From Halorubrum halophilum (lineage in GTDB: Archaea; Halobacteriota; Halobacteria; Halobacteriales; Haloferacaceae), in assembly GCF_000739595.1 (NCBI RefSeq), contig NZ_BBJP01000009.1, forward strand, positions 1-54,850: 54,850 nt of DNA, in the 5' to 3' direction. Positions within the stretch are counted from its first letter, which is position 1. Each line of letters begins with the position of its first letter. The position numbers were made by a program, and so were the translations under genes. Shown piece by piece: positions 1,642-54,850 of this stretch. Below the pieces are notes generated by a model. The model was not told where the DNA came from. It saw only the letters and a program-made list of their open reading frames with translations, and made no database searches.

Positions 1642-1686
1642 GTCTCGCCGGACGCGTGGGGCTCGAATAGTCCTTTTGTCTGTTCC

Positions 1687-2199: not shown

Positions 2200-2200
2200 C

Positions 2201-10958: not shown

Positions 10959-12761
10959 CTACTTTTCGTCGACGTGCCGGACTTCGCTGGCGACGCCGCG
11001 CGTCGAGTCGACCATCTCCGGGCCGGACATCTCGGCGCGGCCGACCCCGAACGCCTTCGGTCCCTCGATGACGACCTCGTCGCCGACGCGGATGTCGTCG
11101 TCCGCGTCGACGACGCCCGGCGCGAGCACGGAGCCGTGCGGGACGAACGGGTCGATCTCGACCCGCTTGGTCGGGGCGTCGCTCTCGGCCCAGCGACGCG
11201 CGCCGGCGAGAGTGAAGGAGAGAGTGCCGTACTGCGGCACCATCGTCGCGAGCTGCTCGCCCGGCTCGCCCTCGCGGCCGGCGTCGGGATCGTCGCCCCA
11301 CACCTGCAGTTTGGGGTAGCGCCCGGTAGTCCGGATGTCCGCCTCGCCGGGGCCGCCGAACAGCTCGTCGCCGGCGCCGTCGCCGAGCAGGTAGTCGGCG
11401 AGCGCCCGGACCGTGTTGTGCTCGCGCTCGCGCTTGCTGTATGCGGGCTCGCCCTGCAGGGTCGCGTTCAGCTCCCCGAGCGACTCGTCGCTGGTCGGAT
11501 GGCCGACGCAGGTGTACTCGAAGGGGATATCGATCGCGGGGTCGCTCTCGACGCGCTCGCAGATCTCGCGGTAGCCGTGGTCCGGGACGTGCGCGATGAC
11601 GCGGGAGTAGTCGTTCCGCTCCAAGTACCGGCGGAGCACCTCCGCGACGAACCCGATCTCGTCTTCGCTCCAGTCGCCCGTGACGACCGCGTCGTAGTGC
11701 TGTGCCGGGTAGGTCGTCTCCAGCTCTTGGGGGACCACGCCGATCGGCGAGGTCATCGAGACGGTGTGACCGCGCCACTGGATCGCGTCGTGGAACTGCC
11801 CGTGGCTCTGGGAGTCGCTGTACGGCTTGGTCGCCGAACAGGGCACGAGGACGAGCGGCTGGTCCGTGAACCGATTCCGATACCGGCTCGTGACGCGGTC
11901 GGCGAACCGCCGGATCTCGACGCGGTCGAGCGTCTCGGCTGTCGCCGCGGTCACCTCGGCGTCGCGCATGAGGGGCGTCCGCTCTTCGAGGTATCCCCAC
12001 TGGTCGTCGAACTCGCGGAACGCGGCCGTGAGCCACTGCTCGTGACGGGCCTGTCCCTCGATGTAGTCGCGCAGGCGACCCGCCCGGATCCGCTCGCGGA
12101 CCCGCCGTAGCTCGGCGCGGAGGGCGTTGACGTTGTGTTCGGCGCAGTCGGCGCGGGTGAACTCCTCGCGGGGCCCCGCGCAGGCCGGGCAGGCGCACGG
12201 CAGCTCGTCGAGGTCTTCGAGGAAGTGCTCGGCGTCGGCGGTGCAGTACATCCCCTGCGTCCCCTTCGTCCGCGCGAGCGTCGCGTCCACGAGGTCGACG
12301 CCGGCGTACGCGAGGAGCGCGACGTTCCGGGGCGTGGCGACGCCCGACAGCGTGAGGGCGGTGTCGGCCGGGAGGGCCTCTTTCGCCGCCACGATCGCGT
12401 CGCGGAACGCCTCGCCGTGGCCGACGAACCCGGAGGCGTCCGCGAGGACGTACGCGTCGGCGCCGGCGTCGCGGGCGCTCTCGCTGTCGACGACCGCGGC
12501 TGAGGGATAGTCGACGTCGGGGTGATCGACCGCGAACGACTCGCGGACCTCTTCGCGGGTCCCCGCCGGGAACGCGCGATGCGGCAGGACGGTGAGCGAC
12601 CCCTCGTCGCCGTCGGGAACCTCGCGGGCGCCGGCCCAGAGACTGCCCGCGTCCTCAAGGAACGGGTCCGCGAGCGCCGGCGTCGTCACCGGGTCGGCGA
12701 GCCGGAGCTCACCGAGCCGGCCGGCGCCGTCGCGCTCGTGGACCTCGAAGTACTCGGTCAT
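10959..12761 (-). CDS. arcS: Archaeosine synthase ArcS
   Basis: It amidates preQ0 at position 15 of archaeal tRNAs to make archaeosine, downstream of TgtA. The 600-residue protein has a degenerate TGT-like barrel (no DSGS nucleophile motif), the Cys cluster CACPAC at 189-194, the ArcS signature PCSATKPYSDSQSH at 307-320 and a C-terminal PUA domain (~520-600, containing GDEVVIEGPKAFGVGRAEM). ATG 12761 is preferred because it starts MTEYFEVHERDGAGRLG, parallel to TgtA's [17 protein letters not shown]; the open frame 30 codons upstream lacks similarity. tgtA lies 2.3 kb away on the same strand. Confidence 0.96.
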   Translation of the reverse strand: MTEYFEVHERDGAGRLGELRLADPVTTPALADPFLEDAGSLWAGAREVPDGDEGSLTVLPHRAFPAGTREEVRESFAVDHPDVDYPSAAVVDSESARDAGADAYVLADASGFVGHGEAFRDAIVAAKEALPADTALTLSGVATPRNVALLAYAGVDLVDATLARTKGTQGMYCTADAEHFLEDLDELPCACPACAGPREEFTRADCAEHNVNALRAELRRVRERIRAGRLRDYIEGQARHEQWLTAAFREFDDQWGYLEERTPLMRDAEVTAATAETLDRVEIRRFADRVTSRYRNRFTDQPLVLVPCSATKPYSDSQSHGQFHDAIQWRGHTVSMTSPIGVVPQELETTYPAQHYDAVVTGDWSEDEIGFVAEVLRRYLERNDYSRVIAHVPDHGYREICERVESDPAIDIPFEYTCVGHPTSDESLGELNATLQGEPAYSKREREHNTVRALADYLLGDGAGDELFGGPGEADIRTTGRYPKLQVWGDDPDAGREGEPGEQLATMVPQYGTLSFTLAGARRWAESDAPTKRVEIDPFVPHGSVLAPGVVDADDDIRVGDEVVIEGPKAFGVGRAEMSGPEMVDSTRGVASEVRHVDEK

Positions 12762-40201: not shown

Positions 40202-40693
40202 GCGGCTTTGTTGCGATCCTCGGCGAGCAACACGCCTCGATCGGTTCCGATCAGTACGACACCGCGGCGATCGAGAACGGGAGAGGGTGTTGCAGATCGA
40301 TGGCGGCGAGCAAGTATTTAAACAGCCGTGAGCGACCGCGATGATCACTTATATACGCGATGCGGTGGCGCGCCCCGGTGAGCGGCCCGCAGGGCCGCGA
40401 GCCGCCGGTGCGAGGGACGCGGTGAGCGCTCGGAGAGCGCGAACCGCGAGGCTGGGGAGGCGTGAGGCTGCGGTTGCGGGTGGGTGGGCCTCGTCGGCTG
40501 GGGCTTTGGAGGTGTTCACCGCAGCACCATCGATCACGGATAACCAGCCGACAGCAACACCACTCGATCGCTTATAAACAACCGATCACCCAATTCGCTA
40601 TATCTACTCCCGCCGTCGATCACCGCCTTTTCGCGGTTGACGATCACCGAACAAGCCGCCGACCCGAACGATGACCGGCCTCAGAACTCGTCC
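40202..40693. other. Non-coding interval holding repeat copy C
   Basis: It consists mainly of repeat copy C (40267-40622). No other gene is visible; the short flanks are the 3' ends of the two convergent genes. Confidence 0.8.
40267..40622 (+). repeat. Dispersed MITE-like repeat, copy C
   Basis: About 356 bp in plus orientation. The right end, read in reverse, is GATCGACGGCGGGAGTAGAT, nearly the same as copy B; the left end (TCGAGAACGGGAGAGGGTGT) is more worn. The core is at 40449-40467. Hairpins: GCGGCCC-GCA-GGGCCGC (as in B), and an interrupted stem CGCGGT/ACCGCG with inner GCGCT/AGCGC where A and B have other paired sequences. ATTTAAAC, ACTTATAT and CTTATAAAC boxes are kept. Confidence 0.8.
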
Positions 40694-41773
40694 TCAGAAT
40701 CCGTCCTCGAAGACGAACGTCCCGTCGCGCTGGACGACCTCGCCGTCGACCTCGATGACGGAGTCCTCGCTCATGTCGACGATCATGTCGACGTGCTCGG
40801 CGGACTCGTTGACCTCGTTGTCGCCGCCGACCGTCTCCGGGTACGCGGAGCCGACCGCCATGTGGACCGTGTCGCCCATCTTCTCGTCGAACAGCATGTT
40901 GTAGGTGAACCGGTCGATCTGGCGGTTCATCCCGATACCGAGTTCGCCGAGGCGCCGGGAGCCCTCGTCGGTGTCGAGGATGCCGGAGAGGAGGTCCTCG
41001 TTGCGCTCGGCGGAGTGCGAGACGACTTCGCCGTCCTCGAACCGGAGCCGGACCCCGTCGATCTCGCGGCCGTAGCGGTAGAGGGGGAGATCGAAGTGGA
41101 CCTCGCCGTCGACGCCGTCTCGCGCGGGCGCGGTGAACACCTCGCCGCCGGGGAGGTTCGCCTCGCCGTAGTCGTTGAGCGTGGAGTTCCCGGACACGTC
41201 GAGCGTGAGGTCGGTCTCGTCGCCGGACTTGATCCGAACTTCGTCGGCGTCGTCGAGTATCTCGACCATCTCCGCCTGGAACTCGCGCTGTTCGTCCCAG
41301 TCGAGCGAGACGGCGTCCCACACGAAGTTCTCGTACGCCTCGGTGCTCATCCCGGCGAGCTGGGCGTGGCTCGCGGTCGGGTACTGCGTGAGACACCACG
41401 TCTTCGAGAGCCGCGTGCGCTTGACCTCCTCCATCGCGCGGTTGTACGCGGCGTTCGTCTCCGGAGCGATGTCGGCGTCCTCGGTGGCGTTCGCGCCGCC
41501 GCGCGCGATGACGAACACGTCGGCCTCCTCGTAGAGCGCGCGTCGGTGGCTCGGCTCGGAGAAGTCGTCGGCGGAGCGCTTGAAGGCGCGCTGCGCGCGC
41601 TTCGAGTAGTTGAGGTAGACGGGGTTCGCGCCGCGGTCCCCGCAGACCTCGTGGAGGGCGACCGCGAGGTCCTCGGCCTCCTTGGGCATCTGGATGACCA
41701 CGTCGTCGCCCGACTCGATGCCGGTGGAGTGGTCGGCGATGATCTCCGCGTGTTCGCGAACGCGTGCGTCCAT
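40694..41773 (-). CDS. M29-family aminopeptidase
   Basis: 359-residue dinuclear metallo-aminopeptidase of the thermophilic aminopeptidase T/AmpS family. Metal-site motifs are present: NLPGGEVFTAP near 206-216, ELGIGMN, DEKMGDTVHMAVG and HVDMIVDM. The N-terminal ~190 residues form the helical-beta entry domain. It trims short peptides in the cytoplasm. The gene is divergent from the M48 peptidase; both are peptidases, but no shared role is shown. Confidence 0.95.
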   Translation of the reverse strand: MDARVREHAEIIADHSTGIESGDDVVIQMPKEAEDLAVALHEVCGDRGANPVYLNYSKRAQRAFKRSADDFSEPSHRRALYEEADVFVIARGGANATEDADIAPETNAAYNRAMEEVKRTRLSKTWCLTQYPTASHAQLAGMSTEAYENFVWDAVSLDWDEQREFQAEMVEILDDADEVRIKSGDETDLTLDVSGNSTLNDYGEANLPGGEVFTAPARDGVDGEVHFDLPLYRYGREIDGVRLRFEDGEVVSHSAERNEDLLSGILDTDEGSRRLGELGIGMNRQIDRFTYNMLFDEKMGDTVHMAVGSAYPETVGGDNEVNESAEHVDMIVDMSEDSVIEVDGEVVQRDGTFVFEDGF

Positions 41774-41900
41774 ACACGGCGTTTCGCGGCCGGGGAATTA
41801 CGGCTTTCCTTCCGGCGGCGCGCGTGGGGAGCCGACCGGACCGTGCTCACGGGTCGACGCCGACGTAACGGGTTTGACGCCCCGCGTCGTACGAACGAGT

Positions 41901-42887
41901 ATGTCACGGCTCGCGTTCCGCGCGGCCGCGGCGGTCGTCGGGGTCGCGCTGCTCGCGCTCTACCTGACCGCGGCGCTGTTCGTCGCGGACCTGCTGCGCG
42001 CGGCCTGGGCCGCCCGCCCCGACCTCCCGGTCCTCCTCGCGCTGCTGGCCGCGGGCGCGCTCGCGTCGGCGTACCTCAGCTACCGGCTCGGCACCGCACA
42101 GCTCCTCGCGAACCTGGAGGGGGACCGCGTCCCGCGGGAGCGGGCGCCGGACCTCCACCGCCGGATCGACTCGCTCGCGGCCCGGATGGACCTCGCGCGC
42201 CCGAATCTGTACGTCACCGACGCGCGCACCCCCAACGCGTTCGCGGTCGGCGGCGGGAGCGACGGCGGTGCGCTGGTGATCGACCGGTCGCTGTTCCGGC
42301 TGCTCTCCCCGCGCGAGATGGAGGCGATCCTCGCGCACGAGTTGGCGCACTTAGAGGGGAACGACGGGTTCGCGATCGCGATGGCCGACGGGGTCGGGCG
42401 CTCGCTGGTCGGGATCGCCACGGTCGCCGCGCTGCCGGCGCTGCTCGCGCTCTCCGGACTCGCCGCCGCCTCGGGGTGGATCCGCGGGCGGCCGAGCGAT
42501 CGCTCGGGCCTCTTCGCGCGGCTTCACCACGCGCTCGCCGGCGGGCTGTTCGCCGGGTTCGTTGTCGCGACGCTCGTCTCCCGGTCGCGGTCGCGAAAGC
42601 GGGAGTTCGCGGCCGACGACCGCGCGGCCGAGGTGACCGGCGACCCGATAGCGCTCGCGCGGGCGCTCCGCCGGATCGAGCGCGCGGCCGAGCCGTCGTG
42701 GCCGCTCGCGCCCTTCTCGACGCACAAGCGGACCGACGAGCCGGCCGAGCGCTGGCTGTCGACGCACCCCTCGACCGACGAGCGCGTCGAGCGCCTGCGC
42801 CAGACGGCCGAGTCGCAGGGGCCGACGCGGCGGATCCCCGTGGGTCTGTCGGGGGCTAGCGTCGGGCGGGGGCGGTCACGGCGGTGA
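41901..42887 (+). CDS. M48-family membrane metalloprotease, HtpX-like
   Basis: 328 residues. Two N-terminal membrane helices (~8-30, ~43-62) precede the protease: zinc motif HELAH at 146-150, two further hydrophobic segments (~165-195, ~215-235), and third-ligand motif REFAADDRAAEVTG. The end THPSTDERVERLR is the family C-terminal signature. It acts in quality control of membrane proteins, active site on the cytoplasmic side. ATG 41901 is right because the first membrane helix starts just after it. Confidence 0.94.
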   Translation: MSRLAFRAAAAVVGVALLALYLTAALFVADLLRAAWAARPDLPVLLALLAAGALASAYLSYRLGTAQLLANLEGDRVPRERAPDLHRRIDSLAARMDLARPNLYVTDARTPNAFAVGGGSDGGALVIDRSLFRLLSPREMEAILAHELAHLEGNDGFAIAMADGVGRSLVGIATVAALPALLALSGLAAASGWIRGRPSDRSGLFARLHHALAGGLFAGFVVATLVSRSRSRKREFAADDRAAEVTGDPIALARALRRIERAAEPSWPLAPFSTHKRTDEPAERWLSTHPSTDERVERLRQTAESQGPTRRIPVGLSGASVGRGRSRR

Positions 42888-43298: not shown

Positions 43299-43306
43299 TT
43301 ATAAGT
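42905..43306 (+). repeat. Dispersed repeat, variant D with tandem right end
   Basis: It keeps the hairpin GCGCCC-GTA-GGGCGC, the core GGCTGGGGAGGCGTGAGGC (42997-43015) and GCGGGGCGGGACTCAAAGG, but has no recognisable terminal inverted repeat. A 15-bp perfect stem pairs 43053-43067 with 43126-43140. The right part is three tandem units (43140-43196, 43197-43253, 43254-43306), each a GGCTGGG-CTTT-like start, GTCGATCCG and an ATTTATAAGT-like end. It may be a fused or rearranged relative of copies A-C. Confidence 0.75.
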
Positions 43307-44606
43307 CGTACTTTTCGCGCGTCACGTCGTCGAGTCCGGAGTCTGCCAGCACGTCCGACGGAACCAACATATCGAGCTGGACAACGCCGGGGAGCCGGCC
43401 GATCTGGACGCCGCCGGTGAACGTACACCGGCCGCGGACCTCGCCCTCGCTCATGCCGAGCAGGGTCCCCGCGCGGTCGAAGGCGTTCTGCGTGGCGTCG
43501 TTGACGGTCGCGCCGGAGCCGACGACCTGAATCGGGGCGGCGTCGGTGTCGATGTCGACGCCGTGCTCTGCCCCAAGGTCGTCGCCCGCCGCGACCTCGT
43601 CGTCGCTGTAGGGCTTGCTAATAAAGGGGAGGTCCTCCTCGTTCGGGAGGAGCACGGGGCCGTCAAGGTCGACGTCCTCGATCACCTCCACATCCATCGT
43701 GACCGTCCCGCTCACGTCGGTCGTGTGGAGGGAGAGTTCGCCGTCGCCTTGGTTCGCGTGGAGGTCCCCGACGTAGACGCCGCCGCCGTCGACGACGACC
43801 GGGCAGATCAGCGTGGCGCCCGCCCGGACCTCCGGGATGTCCATGTGGCCGTCGGTTCGCAGTTCGAGGTCCTCCTCGGTCTCGACGCCGTAGTCGTGGT
43901 CGGCGCCGATGAGGCTCTGGCCGAAGTCGCCCGCATTGTGCGAGTCGGGCATCGTCACCGAGGGTGTCGTCCCGATGTTCCCGATGAAGGGTCGGAGGCG
44001 ACCGAGCGTGCCGGGCATCCCGTCCGGCTCGTACAGCAGGATCGGGTGTTGCCGCGAGTTCTCGGGGATGTCCATCACGCGCTCGGCGTCGAGCGCGAGT
44101 TCGTGGGCGCCCTCCTTGTCGAGGGTGATCCCGACCGCGTTCTCGTGGTCGAACGCGACGGTGTAGCCGTACTCGAAGCCGAACGAGGAGGCGTTGGCGC
44201 CGCACTCGGCACACCGGATCGCGTCCTCGCCGGTGCCCTCGACGATCGAGTCGGGCCAGGTCGTCCCGCACTCGGGGCAGCGGTGGTCGACGAAGGGGTC
44301 GTCGCCGAACGCGCCCTCGCGTTCCGCCATCGACCCCGTGCTGGTGGCCATGCTCGTCACGGTCACGTCGCGGATGTGGATCGCGATCGCGTCGCCGACC
44401 TCGGCGCCCTCGACGCGGATCGGGCGGGTCACCTCGTGGCCGCCGCGGAACGAGGGCGTGACCATCGGTCCCCAACACCCCGGCGGCGTGTACGTCTCCA
44501 CCGTCCCGCCGTCGGCGACCGTGCCGGCCCACTCCTGATCGGGCCCGACCAGCCCGAGCGTGTACTGGTCGACGTAGAGTTCGTCTTGAACGCCTTGCTG
44601 TGACAT
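43299..44606 (-). CDS. Acetamidase/formamidase family protein with zinc-ribbon insert
   Basis: 435 residues of the FmdA/AmdA family, hydrolysing formamide or acetamide to ammonia and the acid. Family parts: PGCWGPMVTPSFRGGHEVTRPI near 44-65, GFEYGYTVAFDHENAVGI, FIGNIGTTP, DSHNAGDFGQSL (metal/active-site region), GGGVYVGDLHANQGDGEL. Residues ~110-142 add two Cys knuckles (CPEC and CAEC), a zinc ribbon I do not expect in the typical enzyme. ATG 44606 is chosen. Its last codons and stop (TAA, 43301-43299) are made of the third tandem unit of repeat D. Confidence 0.9.
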   Translation of the reverse strand: MSQQGVQDELYVDQYTLGLVGPDQEWAGTVADGGTVETYTPPGCWGPMVTPSFRGGHEVTRPIRVEGAEVGDAIAIHIRDVTVTSMATSTGSMAEREGAFGDDPFVDHRCPECGTTWPDSIVEGTGEDAIRCAECGANASSFGFEYGYTVAFDHENAVGITLDKEGAHELALDAERVMDIPENSRQHPILLYEPDGMPGTLGRLRPFIGNIGTTPSVTMPDSHNAGDFGQSLIGADHDYGVETEEDLELRTDGHMDIPEVRAGATLICPVVVDGGGVYVGDLHANQGDGELSLHTTDVSGTVTMDVEVIEDVDLDGPVLLPNEEDLPFISKPYSDDEVAAGDDLGAEHGVDIDTDAAPIQVVGSGATVNDATQNAFDRAGTLLGMSEGEVRGRCTFTGGVQIGRLPGVVQLDMLVPSDVLADSGLDDVTREKYDL

Positions 44607-44694
44607 ACCACATCGTGGTACGGGCGTCAAGAGAATAACGCTACTGCTGGCGGAAGCCTGCGATCGATCTGGGGGGGACCGCAACGGCGAGGTC

Positions 44695-45159
44695 ATGAGC
44701 GCGAAGGCGGTCGTCGACGAAATCTACGGCATCATCCAGCAGGGAAGCGACCTCGGCGAGGTGGACGTGTTCCTCGACCTGCTGGAACTGGACAACCCTA
44801 CCTACAACGACCTGAACATGCTGACCCGCGGCACGAGCGCGAACCCCGACGAGATGAAGGAACTCCACCTCTACCGGATGGAGGGCGGCGAATTCGTCCT
44901 CGGCACGTGGGACGACGAGCGGCGATTGGCCTACGTCCAAGAGCGCGTCACCGGCGACGACGGCGAGGGACTGACACCCCTCGATAAGGCCCAGTTCCTG
45001 CGCCACCGCTACGAGCAGGGCAAGTCCACGCAGGAGTACCTCTCGAAGTGGGACGTGGACGACGACCTCCGCGATCTGTGCGAGGGCCTCGCCGACGCGA
45101 CCGGCGACGACACCTACCGACGCCTCCTCGGCGGCGACTCGACGCTCGGGGAGTTCTGA
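44695..45159 (+). CDS. Uncharacterised acidic protein, 154 residues
   Basis: A soluble, helical protein without signal or membrane segment. It starts SAKAVVDEIYGIIQQGSDLGEVDVFLDLL and has a middle strand pair (EGGEFVLGTWDDERRLAYVQERV). I recognise no domain. It is divergent from the acetamidase gene across 88 nt, and the two could share control. Composition is normal for the chromosome. Confidence 0.82.
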   Translation: MSAKAVVDEIYGIIQQGSDLGEVDVFLDLLELDNPTYNDLNMLTRGTSANPDEMKELHLYRMEGGEFVLGTWDDERRLAYVQERVTGDDGEGLTPLDKAQFLRHRYEQGKSTQEYLSKWDVDDDLRDLCEGLADATGDDTYRRLLGGDSTLGEF

Positions 45160-45345
45160 GGCGACTGCCCCGGCGGAAACGCCGAGGACCGCGCGTACCG
45201 CGGCCGGGAGTCGCCGTCGACGACGCGCTCCGTTCCCCCTGTGAAACGGTCTCACGCGACAGACGCGAATGGTCCGAATAACCGCCAACTGCGGTATCTA
45301 CACCGCTCATAACGATAGTGGGTGCGGCGGATATTCTCATGCGCT

Positions 45346-47931
45346 ATGTCAGATCGGGACAATATTACGACGGGGTTATCGCGCCGAACTGCGCTTCGAA
45401 TCGGTGCCGTTGGCGGTGTGAGCCTGTTCGGACTCTCGTCCGTCTCGCAGACGGACGCCCAGGAAGGACCGACCGCGATCACGGAGTGCCGGGAGATCGA
45501 CGAGCCCGGCGAGTACGTCCTCGACAGCGACCTCTCCGCGGAGGGGGGCTGTTTGCGGATCACCGCGGACGACGTGACGCTCGACGGGAACGGGTACACG
45601 ATCGACGGCGACGGGACCGGAACCGGACTATCCATGGAATCGTCCGGAAGTACCGTCCGAAACCTCACGGTCCAGAACTTCGGGACCGGCATCGAAGTCG
45701 AACTCAGCAATGACGTGACCCTCTCTTCGATAACGGTTCGAGACAACGACACTGGAGTACTGACTCGCAATTCCCGCGATATTCTCTGTGAGGATTCGAC
45801 GATCCGGCAAAACGGTTGGGGTGTGTCTCTCTCCGATTACTCCGGGGTAGTCACGATGCGGAACTGCGACCTGGTAGAGAACGAGTCGTATCCGATACGG
45901 GCGGGGAGCAGCGCTGTCATAGCCGTCGAGGACTGCCGCGTCGTCGACAACGGCGATCCGGTCCTGTTCACGCCGATGCCGGGATCGAAAATAGAGGGAA
46001 CGCTCGTCAGCGGGAGCGACGGGGCCGGAATGGAAACGAAGTACGGAGATTCCGGGATCTTCGACGATCCGACCCCGATACGGAACTGCGTGATCGAGGA
46101 CTGCGACGGCGCCGGCATCGATCAGCCGAACGGCTCCCTCGACGTTCGCGAGTGCACGCTTTCGGGGAATCGCGTCGGCTATCGGGCGGGCGAACCTTCC
46201 CCGGACCCCTACGAGACGACGCTCCGGGACAGCAATATCGAGGACAACGAGGAGTACGGGGTCGTGAATCCTGCGGAGGAGTACTCCCCCACCGTCGACG
46301 CGACGTGCAACTGGTGGGGGGCCGAGTCCGGCCCGGTTCACGAGGACAACCCCAACGAGGATCCGGGGGGCCAACGCGTCAGCGGCGACGTGGAGTTCGT
46401 TCCGTGGTCGACCGAGCGCATCGAGGACGGCGAGGGCGTATGCGATGGCGGCCTCGACGAGGAGCCGGAAGAGCCGGAGGGGCCGCCCGAGGGCGGAACC
46501 GGATACATCTCGAGGAAGTCCTACATGCGGATCAAGGAGATCGGACCGTACGAGGACGTGGACTGCTGGGGCGGAACCGTCTACGTCACCGACCCGTCGG
46601 ACGTCGAGGACGCCGGATTCGCGGGTCCCGGCGCGATCACGGTTCCTGCGTCCTCGGAGGAAGGAGAGGACGCCGAGGAGCGCGAACTCCCCGGACACGT
46701 CATCCGGGCGGAGTCGGACGCCGCGGTCACGCTGCCGACGTGGGGCGGCGAGCGGGGCGAGTGCGAGTCGCTGCTCTTCGTCGATCCCGATCAGGATCTC
46801 CGCGCCGACGTCGAGTACCGAATCGTCACCGACGACCCAGACGCCGCCTACGAGGAGGTCGATACGGGCGGGTTCGCCAGAACGATCCACGAGATCGTAC
46901 AAGTCGAGTACGAGCCCGTGCGTTCGGATCCCGAGGAGAACGTCATTACCGAACCGACGACGATCACGGAACCCGGCGAGTATCACGTTAGGTCCGATAT
47001 CAGATCGGACGACACGTGTATCGAAATCACACGGACGGGTGACGTGACCATCCACGGACACGGCTACTCGCTACTCGGATCGGGGAACGGTACGGGCATC
47101 CATAATGAGGGCGGTTTCGAGGCCCGGAATCTCACGGTCCACGGGTTCGAGACCGGGATTTACAACGAAATTGGCAGAGGTGTCCGTCTCGAAGGCGTGA
47201 CCGTCGAAGAGAACGTCGGGAACGCCGTGGTGGGAGACAGATATGTGAGATTCACGCTAACCGACTGTACAATCCGTGGAAACGGTGGTATAGGAGTCAT
47301 CACCGACGAGTACAGCGACCTCACGCTTACCGACTGTGAGTTACGGGGGAACGGCGGTAATGGGGTTAGCGGCGCGCCGTACACGACCGTCAGAGTACGG
47401 AACTGTCTCGTTGTCGACAACGATACGGGAGTGTACATCAATCACTACAGATCTGACCTCGAAACGGAGGTTATCGACAGCGTTGTGAGAGACAACGCGG
47501 GTTCGGGTGTTCGAGTCGGGGCGACCGAAGGCAGTGTCGGTGAGCCGGTTCCGATCCGGAACTGCGAGATCCGCGACAACGACGGCGCCGGAATCGTCCA
47601 AGCCGCCTCGTTCCTGGACATCCGCAACTGTACCTTGGTAGGGAATCAAGATGGATACCGGCTGAGGGATTCACAGATTTACGAGGCGATCCTCCGAAAC
47701 AACAACATCGAGGAGAACGAGGAGTACGGAGCCGTCGTCGAGGAGAGTTTCTCGGAAAACGATACCATCGACGCCACCTGCAACTACTGGGGCCACGAGT
47801 CGGGGCCCGACCACCCCGACAACCCCGAAGACGATCCCCAGGGACAGCCGGTGAGCGACTACGTGGAGTTCACTCCGTGGTCGACCGAGCGGATCGACGA
47901 CGGAAGCGGCGACTGCGCCGGCGGGACCTAA
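45346..47931 (+). CDS. Secreted right-handed beta-helix protein, duplicated
   Basis: 861 residues. A Tat signal (LSRRTALRIGAVGGVSLFG) is followed by two similar beta-helix modules at ~40-365 and ~540-861, both opening with an ITEPGEY-like strand and both ending with an ATCNxWGxESGP block and a VEFxPWSTERI closing strand. They contain NosD/CASH-type repeats (TLDGNGYTI, DNDTGVL, IEDNEEYG). A 170-residue non-repeat domain (~375-535) separates them. Such proteins bind or cleave polysaccharides, but catalytic residues are not apparent. ATG 45346 is chosen since it puts the twin Arg near residue 14; the frame is open 8 codons further up. Confidence 0.9.
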   Translation: MSDRDNITTGLSRRTALRIGAVGGVSLFGLSSVSQTDAQEGPTAITECREIDEPGEYVLDSDLSAEGGCLRITADDVTLDGNGYTIDGDGTGTGLSMESSGSTVRNLTVQNFGTGIEVELSNDVTLSSITVRDNDTGVLTRNSRDILCEDSTIRQNGWGVSLSDYSGVVTMRNCDLVENESYPIRAGSSAVIAVEDCRVVDNGDPVLFTPMPGSKIEGTLVSGSDGAGMETKYGDSGIFDDPTPIRNCVIEDCDGAGIDQPNGSLDVRECTLSGNRVGYRAGEPSPDPYETTLRDSNIEDNEEYGVVNPAEEYSPTVDATCNWWGAESGPVHEDNPNEDPGGQRVSGDVEFVPWSTERIEDGEGVCDGGLDEEPEEPEGPPEGGTGYISRKSYMRIKEIGPYEDVDCWGGTVYVTDPSDVEDAGFAGPGAITVPASSEEGEDAEERELPGHVIRAESDAAVTLPTWGGERGECESLLFVDPDQDLRADVEYRIVTDDPDAAYEEVDTGGFARTIHEIVQVEYEPVRSDPEENVITEPTTITEPGEYHVRSDIRSDDTCIEITRTGDVTIHGHGYSLLGSGNGTGIHNEGGFEARNLTVHGFETGIYNEIGRGVRLEGVTVEENVGNAVVGDRYVRFTLTDCTIRGNGGIGVITDEYSDLTLTDCELRGNGGNGVSGAPYTTVRVRNCLVVDNDTGVYINHYRSDLETEVIDSVVRDNAGSGVRVGATEGSVGEPVPIRNCEIRDNDGAGIVQAASFLDIRNCTLVGNQDGYRLRDSQIYEAILRNNNIEENEEYGAVVEESFSENDTIDATCNYWGHESGPDHPDNPEDDPQGQPVSDYVEFTPWSTERIDDGSGDCAGGT

Positions 47932-48056
47932 TCCCTCGACGGAGGTTCCCTCCGCGAACGGTTCCGACGGTACTCGTGAGGGCCGGGAGTACGGAACCCC
48001 CCGCGCTCCGCGGTCCCGTCTCTGCGTCCGCCGATCGACGGCCGCGATGCTTGCCG

Positions 48057-48062
48057 TTTTTA
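48057..48062 (+). promoter_or_regulatory. TATA-like box of the truncated gene
   Basis: TTTTTA lies about 26 nt before ATG 48088, the position expected for a leaderless haloarchaeal promoter. After integration it would also read into the integrase gene. Confidence 0.5.
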
Positions 48063-48087
48063 CCACCGCCCGCCCGACGTACGGCGT

Positions 48088-48147
48088 ATGCAGACCCACA
48101 TCGTGCCGGTCGGCTTCGACTACGACCGCATGATAGACGCCATCTAA
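48088..48147 (+). pseudogene. 5' fragment of a conserved haloarchaeal gene, cut by the integrated element
   Basis: It codes MQTHIVPVGFDYDRMIDAI then TAA. The first 14 residues are, from memory, the N-terminus of a conserved haloarchaeal family annotated as HFX_2341-type transcriptional-regulator domain, normally much longer. The GC-rich sequence stops here and AT-rich element DNA with an integrase gene begins. The rest of the gene should lie at the other end of the element, beyond the window. Confidence 0.65.
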
Positions 48148-48151
48148 CTCC

Positions 48152-48192
48152 CGTTTTCGGGCTTTAAGAGGAAAACACAATGTCCGAAAACG
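48152..48192 (+). promoter_or_regulatory. Inverted repeat around the integrase start codon
   Basis: CGTTTTCGG (48152-48160) and CCGAAAACG (48184-48192) are perfect 9-bp arms with the ATG at 48180 between them. In mRNA they would form a stem enclosing the GAGG Shine-Dalgarno-like site (48168-48171) and start codon; in DNA they could be recombinase arm sites near the junction. Confidence 0.5.
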
Positions 48193-49199
48193 AACTTGAA
48201 CCCATCCATCCAGAAGAGGGAATCAATCTCTATCTGAAGGATAGAGAATCAGAGCTAGCAGAGAACACAATCAAAGCGTATCGATACAAGCTTGGGAAAT
48301 TCTCCGATTGGTGTGAACAAGAAGAGATTCAGAATCTAAATGTCCTTTCCGGTCGCACCCTACTGCGATTCAAACAATATCGCCAAGAGGATCTTAATTC
48401 AGTCTCACTCAAGAACCAGATAGATACGTTAAGATCGTTTATCAGGTGGTGTGAGTCTATTGATGCGGTCGAACAAGACTTACACAACAAGATTCTCTCT
48501 CCCTCTCCAAGCCAAACCGAACGACAGAGGGACGAATTGATTCAACCAGAAACAGCTTCAGACATACTTGGGTATCTTTCTCGCTTTGAATATGGTTCAC
48601 TTCACCATGCGCTCTTAACCGTTCTATGGCGGTGTGGTGTACGTAGTGGTACACTCAGATCCTTCGATCTTTGTGATTATGATAGAGAAAATCAGAGACT
48701 CAGAGCGATACATCGACCGCCGGAAACGCCCTTAAAGAATAAGAACAAGGGTCAAAGGCTAATCTCTATCAGCGAGGATCTGAACCAAGTGATTAGCGAT
48801 TACGTCAATCACTCTAGACCGGAGGTAACAGGCAGTAACGGGCGAAATCCATTATTTGCCACACAATTCGGGAGGGTTTCGCGATCGACAATCCGTGAAA
48901 CCTGCTATCGGTGGAGTCACCCATGTAAGTACAATGGTGGAGATTGTCCCCACGGAGAAGATATTGATAGCTGCCAAGCTCTAGGGGGAGAAGATTATTC
49001 TCCCTCTGTTTGTCCTTCCTCAAGAAGCCCCCATGCTTGGAGACGTGGAGCAATCACCCACCACCTTACTCAAGATGTTCCCGTAGAAGTCGTGAGTGAT
49101 CGGATGAACGTATCTCCGGATGTATTGGAACAACACTACGATCGACGCTCTGAAGAGGTGAAAGTAGAGCAACGAAGAGAATATCTAAACGATATCTAG
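48180..49199 (+). CDS. int: Tyrosine recombinase (integrase)
   Basis: 339 residues. Residues 10-105 are a SAM-like core-binding domain; 120-335 are catalytic, with Arg155 in WRCGVRSGTLRSF, His285-x2-Arg288 in SPHAWRRG and nucleophile Tyr320 in LEQHYDRR. Between the two catalytic halves is a Cys-rich insert (C242, C249, C256, H258, C265, C278) that could bind zinc, as I recall from other haloarchaeal integrases. It should integrate and excise the element at the junction near 48,148. It ends in TAG sharing CTAG with the stop of the convergent small gene. Confidence 0.95.
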   Translation: MSENELEPIHPEEGINLYLKDRESELAENTIKAYRYKLGKFSDWCEQEEIQNLNVLSGRTLLRFKQYRQEDLNSVSLKNQIDTLRSFIRWCESIDAVEQDLHNKILSPSPSQTERQRDELIQPETASDILGYLSRFEYGSLHHALLTVLWRCGVRSGTLRSFDLCDYDRENQRLRAIHRPPETPLKNKNKGQRLISISEDLNQVISDYVNHSRPEVTGSNGRNPLFATQFGRVSRSTIRETCYRWSHPCKYNGGDCPHGEDIDSCQALGGEDYSPSVCPSSRSPHAWRRGAITHHLTQDVPVEVVSDRMNVSPDVLEQHYDRRSEEVKVEQRREYLNDI

Positions 49200-49390
49200 A
49201 ACCAATCTTGTTCTTTCTCTGTCGGTTCAGGAGAAGCGTCTAGCGTCTTTTTGGGTTCAGTAGTGGTTTCGGACGTATCGATATTGAACGACTCACAGAG
49301 CTTACTAGCATACTTTGCTGAACGTAGATCCGAATTTGCTACAGTCTTTAGAGCTTCAATATCTTCTTGAGTTAGATCGTCTTTGTCCAT
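49196..49390 (-). CDS. Small acidic hypothetical protein, 64 residues
   Basis: It begins MDKDDLTQEDIEALKTVANS and continues with DLRSAKYASKLCESFNI, then a disordered Thr/Pro/Glu tail. The N-terminal ~40 residues form two helices. It overlaps the end of the integrase gene by 4 nt, tail to tail. A possible partner or control protein of the integrase by position (small genes often sit there in haloarchaeal integrative elements); no domain recognised. Confidence 0.68.
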   Translation of the reverse strand: MDKDDLTQEDIEALKTVANSDLRSAKYASKLCESFNIDTSETTTEPKKTLDASPEPTEKEQDWF

Positions 49391-49763
49391 ATCTGTTTTC
49401 GGCTTGTAGCATACTAAATAAAGGGCTTTCGTGAGTCACGTTACCAAAACGGAAATTAGGTAGGTGTATTGTCCCCCACCTACAGGGTTTCTGAACCTAC
49501 TCAATCATCACTAGAACCGGATTTATTTTTTGTCCCCCGAAGGGAACAAAGGACAGGAATTTGCCCTTACATTACTTTGCATCTCCAAACTTAAATATTT
49601 GTCTATTTATCTTTGATATTTTTGGACAAATGCCCACATTCAGAGCTTATCAGATTTTGATATTTCTGATTTTTGGCTATTAAGTTTAAAAATAGTCTCT
49701 TGGGGGGATTCTGCGTCTCACGTCGCTCCAGAGAATTTGAGGGTAGGGTGTAGTCTATCCCGT

Positions 49764-49787
49764 GATAACAGGGAGTATTGTGTTATC
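49764..49787. repeat. TGTTATC inverted repeat, site 1
   Basis: GATAACA (49764-49770) and TGTTATC (49781-49787) face each other across 10 nt. The extended right half ATTGTGTTATC recurs exactly 200 bp downstream in site 2. Confidence 0.6.
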
Positions 49788-49956
49788 TACCCACCAAATA
49801 TCGATTATCACCCTAATTCTAAATCCTATATCCCTCGATTTTGGCTGCTACGATCCCCCTAGCCTGTCGATCTATAATCCAAAACGAAGGTATTACAGAT
49901 AGTAATCAAAATAGAATACTGTAAGAAGAGCTATTCTATCCTCTGAAATCACCAAT

Positions 49957-49987
49957 ATAACACTAACAATCCCCCCATTGTGTTATC
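49957..49987. repeat. TGTTATC inverted repeat, site 2
   Basis: ATAACAC (49957-49963) pairs with GTGTTAT (49980-49986); the 11-nt ATTGTGTTATC at 49977-49987 repeats 49777-49787. Site 2 lies about 85 nt before the lipoprotein gene and could be an operator or iteron pair. Confidence 0.6.
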
Positions 49988-50070
49988 AGGCTCACGTCGG
50001 CGTTTTAGGTTGAAGATAGCTCCTATTGTGTGACGACAATCATTATTACTGTTCAATTGTCATTCTAAAC

Positions 50071-50574
50071 ATGACGAATCGACGGCGGATATTGATTGCA
50101 ATCGGTGGCTCTGTATCTCTAGCGGGGTGTAGTGCCGAATTTGATACTAGCATAGAAACAGAAGGTTCTGAAAATGAAGATTCAGAGGAAACCCATGAAA
50201 ATGAATCTGAAACAGAAACAGATTCTCAAGAGAATATCGACCGGCCTAAGATAGATGAAGTATCGATTCAGTATGATGAAGATTGGTTAATGCTCTCAAG
50301 GGAGTATCGGGTTCCCAATTATTCTAGCGAATTTACTACTCAAGAGCATTGGACAATAACAAGCGAAGATTATGAGACAGAAAGAACAAGAGAAAACACA
50401 ATTGAAACTGAATCAGATCGAGAAACTATCCTAGTAGGAGAAAGTATGTGGTTCCTCGATCGGCGGGATAACGATATCCAAGCGGGAGACTATGAGATTA
50501 CACTTGTTGTTGAAGGTCCAGATGGATCTGAGAGTGATCCGGTTACTGAATCAATCACAATTGAGTCTGTATAG
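50071..50574 (+). CDS. Predicted Tat lipoprotein
   Basis: 167 residues. The N-terminus MTNRRRILIAIGGSVSLAGC has an Arg-rich start, a hydrophobic stretch and a lipobox with Cys20, typical of haloarchaeal lipoproteins. A Glu/Asp/Ser linker (25-60) leads to a strand-rich domain (~62-167) that looks immunoglobulin-like (WTITSEDYETERTRENTIE, ending DYEITLVVEGPDGSESDPVT). ATG 50071 is chosen over GTG 50026 because the signal starts there. It belongs to the AT-rich element. Confidence 0.85.
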   Translation: MTNRRRILIAIGGSVSLAGCSAEFDTSIETEGSENEDSEETHENESETETDSQENIDRPKIDEVSIQYDEDWLMLSREYRVPNYSSEFTTQEHWTITSEDYETERTRENTIETESDRETILVGESMWFLDRRDNDIQAGDYEITLVVEGPDGSESDPVTESITIESV

Positions 50575-50958
50575 CTAGATGGATTTTTTGAAACACGGAA
50601 AGCCCTATCCGTGATTCTTGAGAAAGTTTCTGCTATGGTTTGGAGCTTTGATACACAAATTATGAATGAGTATCAGAAAGTTGGGTTTAGAATCATACTC
50701 AAAAAGATTTCTTGGATCCTGTATGGTGGTATTTTGTGGCTATTTATTGAAGGATATTCAGATCCTCTTGTATGGATAGTTGCTTTTTTATTGGTAGTGT
50801 TAGCTGAAATAAAATTTTCAGAATCTTCGCTTAGAATTGAAGCTCGAAAACAGGATTTGATTGATGAGCTAAGGGGAAAACCCGTTTCTCTCCACCAAAC
50901 TCCTAAGTCTGGTTCAGCTAAATCTCAGACTATGGCTGATCCCGAGTGGAAAGATACT

Positions 50959-50966
50959 CTTCAAAT
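50959..50966 (+). repeat. Target site duplication, left copy
   Basis: CTTCAAAT directly before the IS; identical to 51907-51914. Eight bases is the usual length for the ISH1 group of IS5. Confidence 0.9.
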
Positions 50967-50998
50967 GGCTGTGTTGAATCGCTGTAAGGCGTGGAGAT

Positions 50999-51829
50999 TC
51001 ACTGTTTGACGAAGCGTTTGATGTTATAGACGACACACATCAGCGCGATTTCGCGGAACTCACGGAACCATGAGCGCGCTCGCACGGCGAAGCCGAGCGA
51101 GCGCTTCACAGCCGAGTTCACGGTTTCGGTCATAGAGCGCTGATTGTAGCGGTTATCGTCGATTCTGGCGTTGTGTGCGTGGTCGTACGGAGCGAAGATA
51201 CGGTGCTTGATCAGCGGTCTGATCCCGAGGTCGCGTAATCCTTCACGAAGCGATTGCTTGTCATAGCCTTTATCGGCCGCAAGAGACCGCAGATCGCCCG
51301 CGTTCCGGCGGGCGATCTGCTCAGCAAGGTCTGCGTCGCTTCCTTCCCGATTCGTTGAGCAGTGAACGTCAAGGACGGCTTGAGACGCTGTATCGACGAG
51401 TTTTGTGACTTTCAGCTTTTGAACGCGGTAGCTGATTCGCTGGCAGTAGTGGCGGCTCGCTGGTGAGCGGTCGTAGAACGTGGCGTCGATCGCGGCGTGT
51501 TCAGAGAGATCGTGCAGCTGCGCCGACTGGCGCAGCAGCACTCGACAGACGCTCATACTGATCCGGTCGAACGCCTTACACAACGTGGACGGCGCGGGGA
51601 GATCGGCCGCGTTGAGGCCGATCTCCCCGGTTATTTGTGGCATCTCTTTGAGCAGGTCGATCGTCATGCGGTACGATGAATCAAGGTAAATCCGCAGACA
51701 GTGAAGGGAAACGAGTGCATAGTCGGCGAATCCGCCGCCACCGTCCGGGGCGGCGGATTCGCCTCCATCGCCAGTAACTCTTTGAGCAACCGGTACAACC
51801 TCCCCGATGAAGCGGGAGATTTGGGTCAT
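50999..51829 (-). CDS. IS5-family transposase
   Basis: 276 residues. DDE catalytic residues are in AAIDATFYDRSPASRHY (first Asp), LAADKGYDKQSLRE (second Asp) and RSMTETVNSAVKRSLG (Glu, with the YxxxxR-E-like spacing of IS4/IS5 enzymes). An N-terminal ~100-residue region binds the ends. The start is ATG 51829; a TTG two codons earlier is in frame. The ATG lies in the loop of an 11-bp perfect inverted repeat (51809-51819 with 51842-51852), which should limit translation of read-through transcripts. Confidence 0.94.
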   Translation of the reverse strand: MTQISRFIGEVVPVAQRVTGDGGESAAPDGGGGFADYALVSLHCLRIYLDSSYRMTIDLLKEMPQITGEIGLNAADLPAPSTLCKAFDRISMSVCRVLLRQSAQLHDLSEHAAIDATFYDRSPASRHYCQRISYRVQKLKVTKLVDTASQAVLDVHCSTNREGSDADLAEQIARRNAGDLRSLAADKGYDKQSLREGLRDLGIRPLIKHRIFAPYDHAHNARIDDNRYNQRSMTETVNSAVKRSLGFAVRARSWFREFREIALMCVVYNIKRFVKQ

Positions 51830-51852
51830 AGGCAACTGAAGTCTCCCGCTTC
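51809..51852 (-). promoter_or_regulatory. Hairpin enclosing the transposase start codon
   Basis: GAAGCGGGAGA (51809-51819) and TCTCCCGCTTC (51842-51852) are perfect 11-bp arms; the transposase ATG (51829-51827) is in the 22-nt loop. In mRNA entering from outside, the stem would hide the start. Confidence 0.6.
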
Positions 51853-51906
51853 AACTCCTTTGATTTAGCGGCCTACCTCTCTGCCGTATGGCGATTCAAC
51901 ACAGCC

Positions 51907-51914
51907 CTTCAAAT
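51907..51914 (+). repeat. Target site duplication, right copy
   Basis: CTTCAAAT directly after the IS, identical to 50959-50966. Confidence 0.9.
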
Positions 51915-52399
51915 AGTATATGACAATCAGATACTTTGGTCGAAAGATTCAGACTATGATAGTGATCATCCTGTAGTAGAAGAATCTGATAAAGATCCTA
52001 AACAAGTACAAGAGGATTTAGCCTTTCTTCATGAGGTTGGTTTGATTGGATCCCATCATGTTGGACATCGAACAGAGATAAACCGCCCTAAGAAAAGTAG
52101 TTTAGCTGGTTTAACAGAACACGCAGAAAGAACAGGTACTCATTTGGGCCTAACACCCAAAGGATTCGAAGTAATTCATGAAGAAGAGCTAAATCAGAAC
52201 CAGATAAGAACCAATATTGGAATTGGAATTTTGACTATATTCTTGGTAACTGGTTCATTATTACAAGGATATTCAGCTTATCTCACACATAATGATATAT
52301 TTGACCAACTTATATTATTTGTTGTAGTTGTTGTTTCTGTTCTAATTGGATTGTTTGTAATCTCAATTATGATGGGTAAAAATCTAATAGAATATCTGC

Positions 52400-52555
52400 C
52401 TAGTGTGTAATTCTACACTCCTCTTCAAACACCCTATACAGTCCCTCGATAACAATGTCTTGTTCCGATAGTTCACTCTGATAAGTCGCTTCCTCAATCA
52501 ATTCTATTAGCTCAGGGTCGTTAACTGTCGCTCTTACGCTCTTATATTCACTCAT
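52400..52555 (-). CDS. Small ribbon-helix-helix-like protein, 51 residues
   Basis: It reads MSEYKSVRATVNDPELIELI then EEATYQSELSEQDIVIEGLYRVFEEECRITH. A short basic strand (KSVRATV) followed by two helices is the layout of CopG/RHH DNA-binding proteins such as antitoxins and plasmid copy-control proteins. Its ATG overlaps the stop of the 38-residue membrane peptide gene (ATGA), so they are co-translated. The 3' end overlaps the interrupted gene by 11 nt tail to tail. A likely regulator of its own operon through the inverted repeat at 52657-52706. Confidence 0.68.
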   Translation of the reverse strand: MSEYKSVRATVNDPELIELIEEATYQSELSEQDIVIEGLYRVFEEECRITH

Positions 52556-52668
52556 AGTCTAAAAGTCAAAACTGCTAGTCCTAGTCCTACTATTCCACCA
52601 AAACAGATCGATCCGAATGTTGCTATCATATTTCTAAAGTCCATGTTAGTGATTACCACGTGAGTCAT
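52552..52668 (-). CDS. 38-residue single-helix membrane peptide
   Basis: MTHVVITNMDFRNMIATFGS followed by ICFGGIVGLGLAVLTFRL: one membrane helix at about 16-36. It ends in an ATGA overlap with the RHH-like gene. The first start lies inside one arm of a 12-bp inverted repeat; an internal ATG (52644) would give a 30-residue peptide with the same helix. A membrane peptide paired with an RHH protein recalls toxin-antitoxin pairs, but the toxin role is speculative. Confidence 0.6.
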   Translation of the reverse strand: MTHVVITNMDFRNMIATFGSICFGGIVGLGLAVLTFRL

Positions 52669-52706
52669 ATCTTCTAATAAACTAATAAGCCGAAATGACT
52701 CACGTG
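52657..52706. promoter_or_regulatory. 12-bp inverted repeat, probable operator or attenuator
   Basis: CACGTGAGTCAT (52657-52668) and ATGACTCACGTG (52695-52706) are perfect arms around 26 nt of AT-rich DNA. On the minus strand the structure starts 3 nt after the helicase-like gene's stop and ends inside the first codons of the membrane peptide gene. It could be a dimer operator for the RHH-like protein or an RNA hairpin that hides the peptide start. Confidence 0.65.
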
Positions 52707-52709
52707 ACA

Positions 52710-54431
52710 TTAGTTACCACACCATTCATACTTGTCCGGGAAAAACGCGCCGGACGAATTGTATTTCTTAATCGATTCTAGTTGATTCAGAACCCTGCTA
52801 ATCTGTTTTTGACTGTATCCTGTAGCTTTCTCAATCTCCTTTTGGCTATGTTGCTCATCACTCTCCCGAAGATACCGGATAACTGCTAGTTTACTAGGAG
52901 AGTGAGACTGTAGCTCTTCTTTCTGAACCGGAACCCAATTCGGTAAACCAGAGGTATTAACGTATACTGTAGTTGGCTCTTTGGATCGTCCGAACCTGAA
53001 TACATCCTGTAGGGTCAAATTCCTATACAGAGGGAAGATATTGAATGTCTCATTTCCGAATTGGTATTCAGTCTCTCCCTCCCGATCTACTTGAACCGAT
53101 TTGCCAAGATAAGAACCCCACTTGAATACGTATTCATCACCATAATTTCTCATACCCGTGACAAATCCTAGTTGCTTATCTTGGAACTTGTTAGACGATA
53201 ATATCCGCGCAAAGTTCAGGGAGTTATCTGTATACTCTTCTATTTCGTCATCGTATTTCTGTATGGCTTTTTTCGACGTGATAACCCCCGGTTTCTCTCC
53301 CTCCTTTTGCTGAATAGAATACGCTAAGGAGGTATCCTGATTTACTGCTATATTATTTGAGTTTTGATAATACCTCTTATGCTCTGATACCTGTTTGATT
53401 TCTAGGTTCAGAATATCGGTGATATATCGCTTCTTTTCCTCTTCGGAAAGAACCTGAATATGCTCAAGATTCAAGCCTGTAGCACAATCCCACATTTCCG
53501 GGATCGGGGTTCCGTCTAGACCGATAAATCCATCAGCTGATTCAAAGTCGGGAGGATTGAGTAAATACATACTCTCGCGTTTCTCATCAAAGACAACTTG
53601 AGCATTATCACCGATATGAGTATCAATCCCATCGATTTCAGAGAATTGAGTATGGGTCTTTTCCCAACCCGGATTAACCTCAATCCCTACAAGAAGAGCA
53701 TAGGCCAATAACGGCGCATGGACGTGATACTCTTCGGGATCTAATGCTGTTTCTGTATCACGGTATACGTCGAATTCTTGGAACCAATTAACGACTTTCG
53801 CAGTCTCTTCTTGGGAAGCTTCCCTTATTTCAGTAAAGGAGTTTAGCGGGAAAGAATTAACACTATGTATAAACCTGTTTATCAATTCGCGCGGCTTGTG
53901 ATAGACTAATTCATATTCATTTTCGCTAAATTCGTCTTTTACTGCTACCCGATTAGTAAGATAATTGGGGTTATATGCGTGTTTTGGATTCCCGATCAAT
54001 ACGTCTATATCCGATAAATCACGGTTAAGAGACTCAATATATGGACATGAGCCATTACAGGGAAGCTCAAGCCTTTCATGTAACTCCTTTGCTGATATTC
54101 CCCTTCGGTATAGTTCTCTCAATCCATGTTTGTCGTTCTGAAAGGAGGGACATTCATCATGCGGAACCGGGATTTTATGGTACGATAAACCAAATTCATT
54201 ACACTTCTTAATAGAATCCTCCTTGAGTCTATTCAATGAAGTGAGATACAGGATTTGAGTATCAGTCTCTTGAGCCTGTTTGAATGTCGAATGGCTCTTA
54301 CCCGTGATCGGGAGAGATTCAATTAACACGTTATTTTTGTTTCTATACGATTCTGCTATTTGACTAGCTAATCGTTCTCTTATTCGCGGTAAATCAATAG
54401 GTTTAAATTCTTGAGGATGTAATTTAGTCAT
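52710..54431 (-). CDS. Degenerate SF2-helicase-like protein with C-terminal winged helix
   Basis: 573 residues. A Walker-A-like LPITGKS lies at 40-46; later come VFDEKRE (DE-box-like), GLDGTPIPEMW (like the LDATP motif III region of haloarchaeal plasmid helicases), LGFVTGMRNYGDEYV and LQDVFRFGRSKEP (motif-VI-like). A Cys group near residues 95-130 (DECPSF, CNGSCPYIE) could bind metal. Residues ~508-555 are a winged helix (QKEIEKATGYSQKQISRVLNQLESI). It probably acts in replication of the element. ATG 54431 is preferred to 54446 because GGTGAT, a strong ribosome site, lies 7 nt before it. Confidence 0.78.
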   Translation of the reverse strand: MTKLHPQEFKPIDLPRIRERLASQIAESYRNKNNVLIESLPITGKSHSTFKQAQETDTQILYLTSLNRLKEDSIKKCNEFGLSYHKIPVPHDECPSFQNDKHGLRELYRRGISAKELHERLELPCNGSCPYIESLNRDLSDIDVLIGNPKHAYNPNYLTNRVAVKDEFSENEYELVYHKPRELINRFIHSVNSFPLNSFTEIREASQEETAKVVNWFQEFDVYRDTETALDPEEYHVHAPLLAYALLVGIEVNPGWEKTHTQFSEIDGIDTHIGDNAQVVFDEKRESMYLLNPPDFESADGFIGLDGTPIPEMWDCATGLNLEHIQVLSEEEKKRYITDILNLEIKQVSEHKRYYQNSNNIAVNQDTSLAYSIQQKEGEKPGVITSKKAIQKYDDEIEEYTDNSLNFARILSSNKFQDKQLGFVTGMRNYGDEYVFKWGSYLGKSVQVDREGETEYQFGNETFNIFPLYRNLTLQDVFRFGRSKEPTTVYVNTSGLPNWVPVQKEELQSHSPSKLAVIRYLRESDEQHSQKEIEKATGYSQKQISRVLNQLESIKKYNSSGAFFPDKYEWCGN

Positions 54432-54438
54432 GTAGGAG

Positions 54439-54444
54439 ATCACC
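54439..54444 (-). promoter_or_regulatory. Ribosome binding site deciding the start of the helicase-like gene
   Basis: On the minus strand GGTGAT lies 7 nt before ATG 54431 and matches the 16S rRNA 3' end. It overlaps the alternative ATG at 54446, which therefore is less likely. Confidence 0.55.
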
Positions 54445-54446
54445 AT

Positions 54447-54617
54447 CTTCCCATCAAGGGTGTGTTGGTATCACACCTTTGGGCTTTCAATATCTCAAAG
54501 AGATACATCGATGAGATTTATATTCTAAATCTTTAGTGCGTAAAAATTGAAGTCTTATTAATTTAAGGCTTTCTTTTTAGTTATTATTGAAAATAATATA
54601 TTGTGTTGAATTAATGT
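54447..54617. other. AT-rich spacer with probable promoter
   Basis: Very AT-rich (for example a stretch around 54580-54615 of A/T runs). It separates the helicase-like gene from the small gene upstream on the same strand and probably holds the helicase promoter; no gene is seen. Confidence 0.5.
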
Positions 54618-54800
54618 TTAATGAATATACCCTATCTCTGTATCAATATCTGGCATTTTGAGTATCATGGTTACTTTTCCCTCCAAATCGTTGTGATAAT
54701 AACCCACAAGAGCATCAAATTCGTTCAGATCTGCTTGGATCTCGTCTAGATAATTGTCATCTACAACATACTCAAAGAATCCATTAGCAGTTTGAATCAT
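54618..54800 (-). CDS. Small acidic hypothetical protein, 60 residues
   Basis: It begins MIQTANGFFEYVVDDNYLDE and ends TMILKMPDIDTEIGYIH. A predicted mixed alpha/beta small domain without membrane segment. Its ATG overlaps the TGA of the gene before it (ATGA), so the two are coupled. No family recognised. Confidence 0.65.
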   Translation of the reverse strand: MIQTANGFFEYVVDDNYLDEIQADLNEFDALVGYYHNDLEGKVTMILKMPDIDTEIGYIH

Positions 54801-54850
54801 GTCAGATACTCCTTGAATTCTCTTTCAAAGTCGCTAGTTGTCCACTCTGG
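54797..54850 (-). CDS. C-terminal end of a further small gene, cut by the window
   Basis: The visible residues are PEWTTSDFEREFKEYLT followed by TGA, which overlaps the ATG of the 60-residue gene (ATGA). The acidic, helical composition is protein-like, and the other two frames on this strand are less so. The start lies beyond the window. Confidence 0.55.
   Translation of the reverse strand, partial: PEWTTSDFEREFKEYLT

Follow-up and report, generated by a model that had tools for sequence, protein, structure and literature searches.

The window, 54,850 nt in length, comprises all of contig C95 of Halorubrum halophilum (genome G000). Its GC content is 67% at 40-48 kb and falls sharply, at a junction, to 42% over 48135-54850. 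The features at this junction and around it are as follows, in window coordinates.

40637..42859, + strand: host gene of the left flank, located 5' of crr in thirteen relatives
43299..44696, - strand: host gene of the left flank with a weak formamidase-like match, located 5' of crr in nine relatives
48050..48076, + strand: native host crr promoter region with the weak TATA GTTTTTACC, now 5' of the stub and the integrase gene
48077..48134, + strand: attL, a 58-bp core made of 11 bp before crr, the ATG and 15 full codons (47 nt coding), 58/58 identical with C85:3051-3108
48088..48147, + strand: 5' stub of crr, an open reading frame encoding MQTHIVPVGFDYDRMIDAI*
48107..48128, + strand: inverted repeat CGGTCG-(10)-CGACCG in the codons for VGFDYDR, candidate core site of the integrase
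48115..48131, + strand: crossover interval, crr nt 28-44, transferred from the comparison of G324 with G249
48135..54850, no strand: left 6.7 kb of the integrated element, by GC content and repeat; the right 3.05 kb is G000:C85:1-3050
48180..49199, + strand: tyrosine integrase of the SNJ2 family, 339 aa, member of the crr-targeting clade
50999..51835, - strand: IS5-family transposase inserted in the element
52710..54446, - strand: 578-aa P-loop-like protein with a C-terminal winged helix, common to the crr element of G324 (40% identity)

The two junctions and the target gene

When the genome was searched with 48040-48300, a second copy of 48077-48134 was found on another contig (G000:C85:3051-3108, + strand, 58/58 identity). 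Element DNA adjoins opposite sides of the two copies. On C85, AT-rich DNA (41% GC, 1-3050) is followed by attR and a complete gene of 314 amino acids, and the DNA past this gene is host-like with 69% GC. Both junctions of an integrated element are thus present, attL on C95 and attR on C85. The exact core ends at 48134, not at 48147; positions 48135-48147 are element DNA, which by chance prolongs the frame to the MQTHIVPVGFDYDRMIDAI* stop.

An earlier note on this DNA had placed the ATG at 48088, the stop at 48145-48147 (TAA), the integrase start at 48180 and a GC shift at the junction, and all of these were verified in the window. It had also proposed that an integrase had inserted the element in the 5' part of a regulator-like gene instead of a tRNA gene. 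This is borne out by the 58-bp repeat, which is the att core that it had suggested identifying, and by the absence of tRNA: there is no tRNA att in the window and no tRNA gene at either junction. Its expectation that the rest of the gene would be found past 54850 holds in part; the gene does continue, on C85, but the window is already the entire contig.

The 314-aa protein is a full-length match to the HFX_2341 family (NF051475, 580 bits against a cut-off of 500) and also matches PF19810 and DUF7776. Judged by these matches, the target gene is HFX_2341/crr, a haloarchaeal global regulator. HFX_2341 was renamed crr, CRISPR-related repressor; its deletion alters many genes and its over-expression strongly lowers cas mRNA (PMC11434293). 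In Haloferax mediterranei, the crr locus together with a putative transposable element is the strongest self-spacer hotspot, which led to the discovery of crr (PMC11434293). This is the sole paper on HFX_2341 that we found, and it mentions the putative transposable element at the locus. The crr 5' pattern is present in 358 of 392 genomes of the order, and the DNA of the codons for PVGFDYDR, which contains the inverted repeat, is highly conserved.

Up to 13 relatives have the left-flank genes on the upstream side of crr, so the left flank of the window belongs to the crr locus; in G014, 48 bp separate crr from the start of the homologue of 43299-44696. An 869-aa parallel beta-helix (NosD-like) exported protein is encoded directly 5' of attL (45322-47931), and G014 lacks this gene in the interval from the flank gene to crr. 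A small protein associated with DUF1156 methylases lies just outside attL in the window (44695-45159) and inside the crr element of G009 (L078 3476-3925), a placement that suggests serial integrations and remnants at the crr site. Between the stub and the integrase, at 48148-48165, a hairpin CCCG-TTTT-CGGG is followed by CTTTAAG, and related hairpins occur in G009 and G203. It is possibly an attenuator or an arm site of the integrase.

Occupied crr sites and the position of the crossover

Two same-strand copies of the crr 5' end are present in 16 of the 392 genomes. A separate find, G009, brings the occupied genomes to 17, 16 of them besides G000, from four families (f1, f4, f7, f12). The elements in the genomes other than G000 are 1.6-20.9 kb long. 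They have a common order: native promoter, crr stub, about 90 bp, integrase, element, element promoter and intact crr. At the 16 sites that lie on a single contig, several of them of chromosome size, the copies are about 1.6-21 kb apart, and the upstream copy is the stub and the downstream one the complete gene in 16/16. Surviving integrases begin about 90-100 bp past the stub ATG on the same strand. Damaged integrases also occur, and the element of G362 and some other short ones are decayed with the integrase lost. Cargo includes a type I RM system (G311), a type IIG-like enzyme (G203), N6-methylases (G214 and G306) and a DUF1156-type methylase (G009), while other elements carry probable replication proteins, judged by eye as they match no family. 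No virion genes were recognised among the crr-element proteins tested, and in G000, where part of the element is missing, none of those tested has a PHROG or Pfam virion match. Scans of IMG/VR gave no free circular or viral copy and no circular attP.

Relatives with an empty site, a comparison that the earlier note had also proposed, were found for several occupied genomes, and they allow the crossover to be mapped. The last 50 bp of the native promoter in G249 (empty) are the same as at the stub of G324, and over nt 60-150 the genes of the two are 99% identical. The rebuilt crr of G324 has CAG/GGG as codons 2 and 9, against CAA/GGC in G249 and in the stub, while from codon 15 on the rebuilt gene agrees with G249 and it is the stub that departs. 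The crossover therefore falls within crr nt 28-44. With the crossover there, the promoter region of crr, the start codon and 9 or more codons come from the element, and the residues they encode stay the same. The pair G214/G148 (98% identity in the promoter, 99% in the gene) supports the same reading of the empty site, and the flanks in G053/G309, G136/G168 and G306/G379 likewise match empty sites. The crossover interval overlaps the CGGTCG-N10-CGACCG repeat. Shuffling lends this repeat modest support, both for the 6-bp arms of G000 (59/1000 shuffles as long) and for the commoner form with 7-bp arms (16/1000).

The frame of 19 codons at the left junction could be taken as a disrupted regulator, and the earlier note had indeed held that the insertion inactivates the gene and that excision repairs it. 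This is contradicted by the core, which includes the start codon with 15 codons, and by the gene at the far end: crr is complete and uninterrupted at the far junction in G000 and at the 16 other sites, that is at all 17 occupied sites found. Insertional inactivation is thus highly improbable, and any switch would act on the level or control of expression rather than turning the coding sequence on and off. As read from the junctions, integration alters the promoter, the start codon and the first codons, at least 9, and does not break the crr coding sequence. We consider it just as improbable that the anatomy is an artefact of assembly, in which C95 and C85 would come from different strains of a binned genome. 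The genome consists of 103 contigs with a contamination estimate of 3%, which would permit such a chimera, but the left flank is syntenic with crr in relatives, the same anatomy is present on single contigs in other genomes, and the facing ends of C95 and C85 have an 18-bp inverted match in common. This match suggests a small assembly gap at a repeat. Joining C95 and C85, we infer that the two junctions are the ends of one integrated element of at least 9.8 kb.

Exchange of promoters and its possible purpose

Most elements have a conserved right-end sequence that ends in CTGGTGnTTTATATAAACACCAG at a constant distance 5' of crr. In G000, GTTTTTATAA stands before crr where GTTTTTACC stood in the native promoter, with the distance unchanged. 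With TATA strength judged by consensus alone, a canonical TATA is present on the element side in 14/17 cases, against 4/17 on the stub side and 56/116 at empty sites (Fisher p=0.0016 and 0.009; best-match score p=3e-6). The elements of G357 and G362 have no clear TATA on the crr side, and in G053, G136 and G022 the native promoter already has a good one. The two arms that flank the TATA pair better when taken from one sequence than from different ones (p=0.0006) and form a covarying dyad. Such a pattern would be expected of an operator for a dimeric protein, and candidate binders are Crr itself or a small PhiH1-like winged-helix protein carried by some elements (at L112:3769-4032, for example).

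That element DNA supplies the promoter region and start codon of crr is evident from G324 and its empty counterpart G249, and from G214 and G148. We are confident, although short of certain, that the window holds the left half of an integrative element whose dedicated SNJ2-family integrase recombines in crr, and that its integration is a reciprocal exchange of promoters. On the sequence evidence, crr is rebuilt intact behind the promoter region of the element, and the native promoter is left 5' of the stub and the integrase. We suggest the following mechanism. The integrase would recombine inside codons ~10-15 of crr, and attP would carry a copy of the crr 5' end (the ATG and first codons), flanked on one side by the element promoter and on the other by the integrase gene. 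This promoter, in the circular form, would lie directly 5' of the crr core and the integrase and would drive the latter. After integration, going by the order of the parts, the element promoter would instead drive crr, and the integrase would come under the native crr promoter, which is usually weaker. Weaker expression of the integrase would stabilise the integrated state, and excision would reverse both promoter changes.

In the genus of G313, three genomes with no second copy (G372, G279 and G400) carry an element-type crr promoter, and three others (G344, G169 and G318) carry the native type, as at the stub of G313. Among the loci L254-L264 of this genus there are two haplotypes of the crr promoter, native and element-type without a stub. 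The stubless element-type promoters look like scars of former integrations, so replacement of the promoter may outlive the element.

What the exchange is for can be read in two ways. It is probable that crr is simply a safe and conserved attB and that the new promoter is a benign repair that spares the gene: crr is present in most haloarchaea by the 5' pattern counted above, the DNA of its PVGFDYDR codons is conserved together with the inverted repeat, and sister integrases use conserved tRNA 3' ends. Taken alone, this leaves the better TATA boxes of the elements relative to empty sites unexplained, although the needs of the integrase could explain them. It is compatible with the anatomy described here and differs in purpose only. 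Alternatively, the elements might be selected to put crr under their own promoter and so to damp CRISPR or reprogram metabolism. A lineage of integrases dedicated to crr would then place a repressor under a promoter that bears an operator, damping CRISPR, and the same crossover would silence the integrase. The strong effect of crr over-expression on cas mRNA (PMC11434293), the better TATA boxes with their covarying dyad and the persistence of element-like promoters without a stub in G372, G279 and G400 speak for this, but no Cas1 match was obtained in G000, and the integrase would be reason enough for a strong promoter. Moreover, cas1 is found in 8/16 occupied genomes and 123/376 others, which is not a significant difference (p=0.18). 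Given the lack of Cas1 in G000 and of a significant enrichment, we regard selection for control of crr as unlikely, and the lineage and operator scheme just described as equally doubtful. If it were true, recombination rather than a protein would serve to damp CRISPR and reprogram the host. Most safely, crr is read as a conserved attB whose use is benign, with a promoter that spares the host and an integrase that limits its own expression. The crr elements connect mobile DNA with crr expression and CRISPR activity in a way that can be tested, and those that bear RM systems can bring in one defence while touching the control of another.

The integrase lineage and known systems

The integrase of the window is 42% identical to that of SNJ2 and has the domains Phage_int_SAM_1 and Phage_integrase, the latter with a score of 21.4, which is under the Pfam gathering score of 27.1. 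Full-length integrases at crr sites are 67-71% identical to it. Across the 392 genomes, identity of 69% or more to the enzyme of G306 singles out eight integrases, and these coincide with the full-length ones found at crr. Five others follow at 54-58% identity to the G306 enzyme, none of them at crr; four of the five are at tRNA 3' ends, with 22-42 bp repeats, and many more distant paralogues also have repeats with tRNA 3' ends. In the integrase tree the crr integrases form one clade with support 100/100, which is unaffected by the long and meaningless branch of own_L007, a mistranslated row from G000. Given this clade and the tRNA sites of its relatives, tRNA use is probably ancestral and crr targeting would be a derived trait of a subgroup. 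In plasmid and phage collections only relatives of at most 51% identity were found.

G000 has six more SNJ2-family integrases (C33, C77, C82, C91, C93 and C94), and those on C91 and C77 have repeats with the 3' ends of tRNA-Val and tRNA-Ala, respectively. In G011 (contig C16, L223, integrase on the + strand), an SNJ2-family integrase lies beside a 106-bp repeat (1231-1336 and 12099-12204) located in the 5' end of a gene for a DinB-like DNA polymerase IV. The rebuilt polymerase gene has a new N-terminus supplied by the element.

In the literature searched we found neither a recurrent archaeal integration site in the promoter and 5' end of a global regulator, nor a reciprocal promoter exchange with the integrase, nor a crr-specific element family or any link between HFX_2341/DUF6293 and an integrase. 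Attachment at tRNA 3' ends with short att sites is usual for the SNJ2 family, whose relatives are found throughout Halobacteria. The crr integrase belongs to this family, in which the choice of target varies, but uses a protein gene instead, and while the reported attP of SNJ2 lies downstream of int, that of the crr element would not. As to betapleolipoviruses, no pleolipovirus genes were recognised in the crr element, and no virion match that would point to a spike or VP3-VP4 module was obtained among the element proteins tested. The integrases of the pTN3 type are alike in having attB in the 5' half of the target and in leaving the restored gene behind the integrase promoter; they differ in their tRNA target, in the splitting of the integrase gene itself (suicidal) and in their hosts, Thermococcales (PMC8371274). 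BJ1 in HMG-CoA reductase, Msmi-Pro1, and NitGar-E6 in an AsnC regulator also have att in chromosomal coding sequence, one of them a regulator, and the source passage describes for them neither an exchange of promoters nor repeated use of the site nor a clade of integrases dedicated to it (PMC8371274).

The closest likeness is to bacterial elements, the dusA-specific elements (IMEVchUSA3; PMC8409611) and the ICE SXT at prfC. Here, as there, a tyrosine integrase uses the 5' end of a conserved protein gene, and the element brings a promoter of its own and restores the open frame, with the gene intact at attR. In bacteria a tRNA-modifying enzyme or a release factor is the target, whereas the crr element uses a CRISPR-linked regulator; the N-terminus is altered in the bacterial targets and unchanged in crr; and only in the crr element would attP lie between the element promoter and the integrase. 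With these differences, the crr elements can be described as an archaeal version of the SXT/prfC and dusA-island type.
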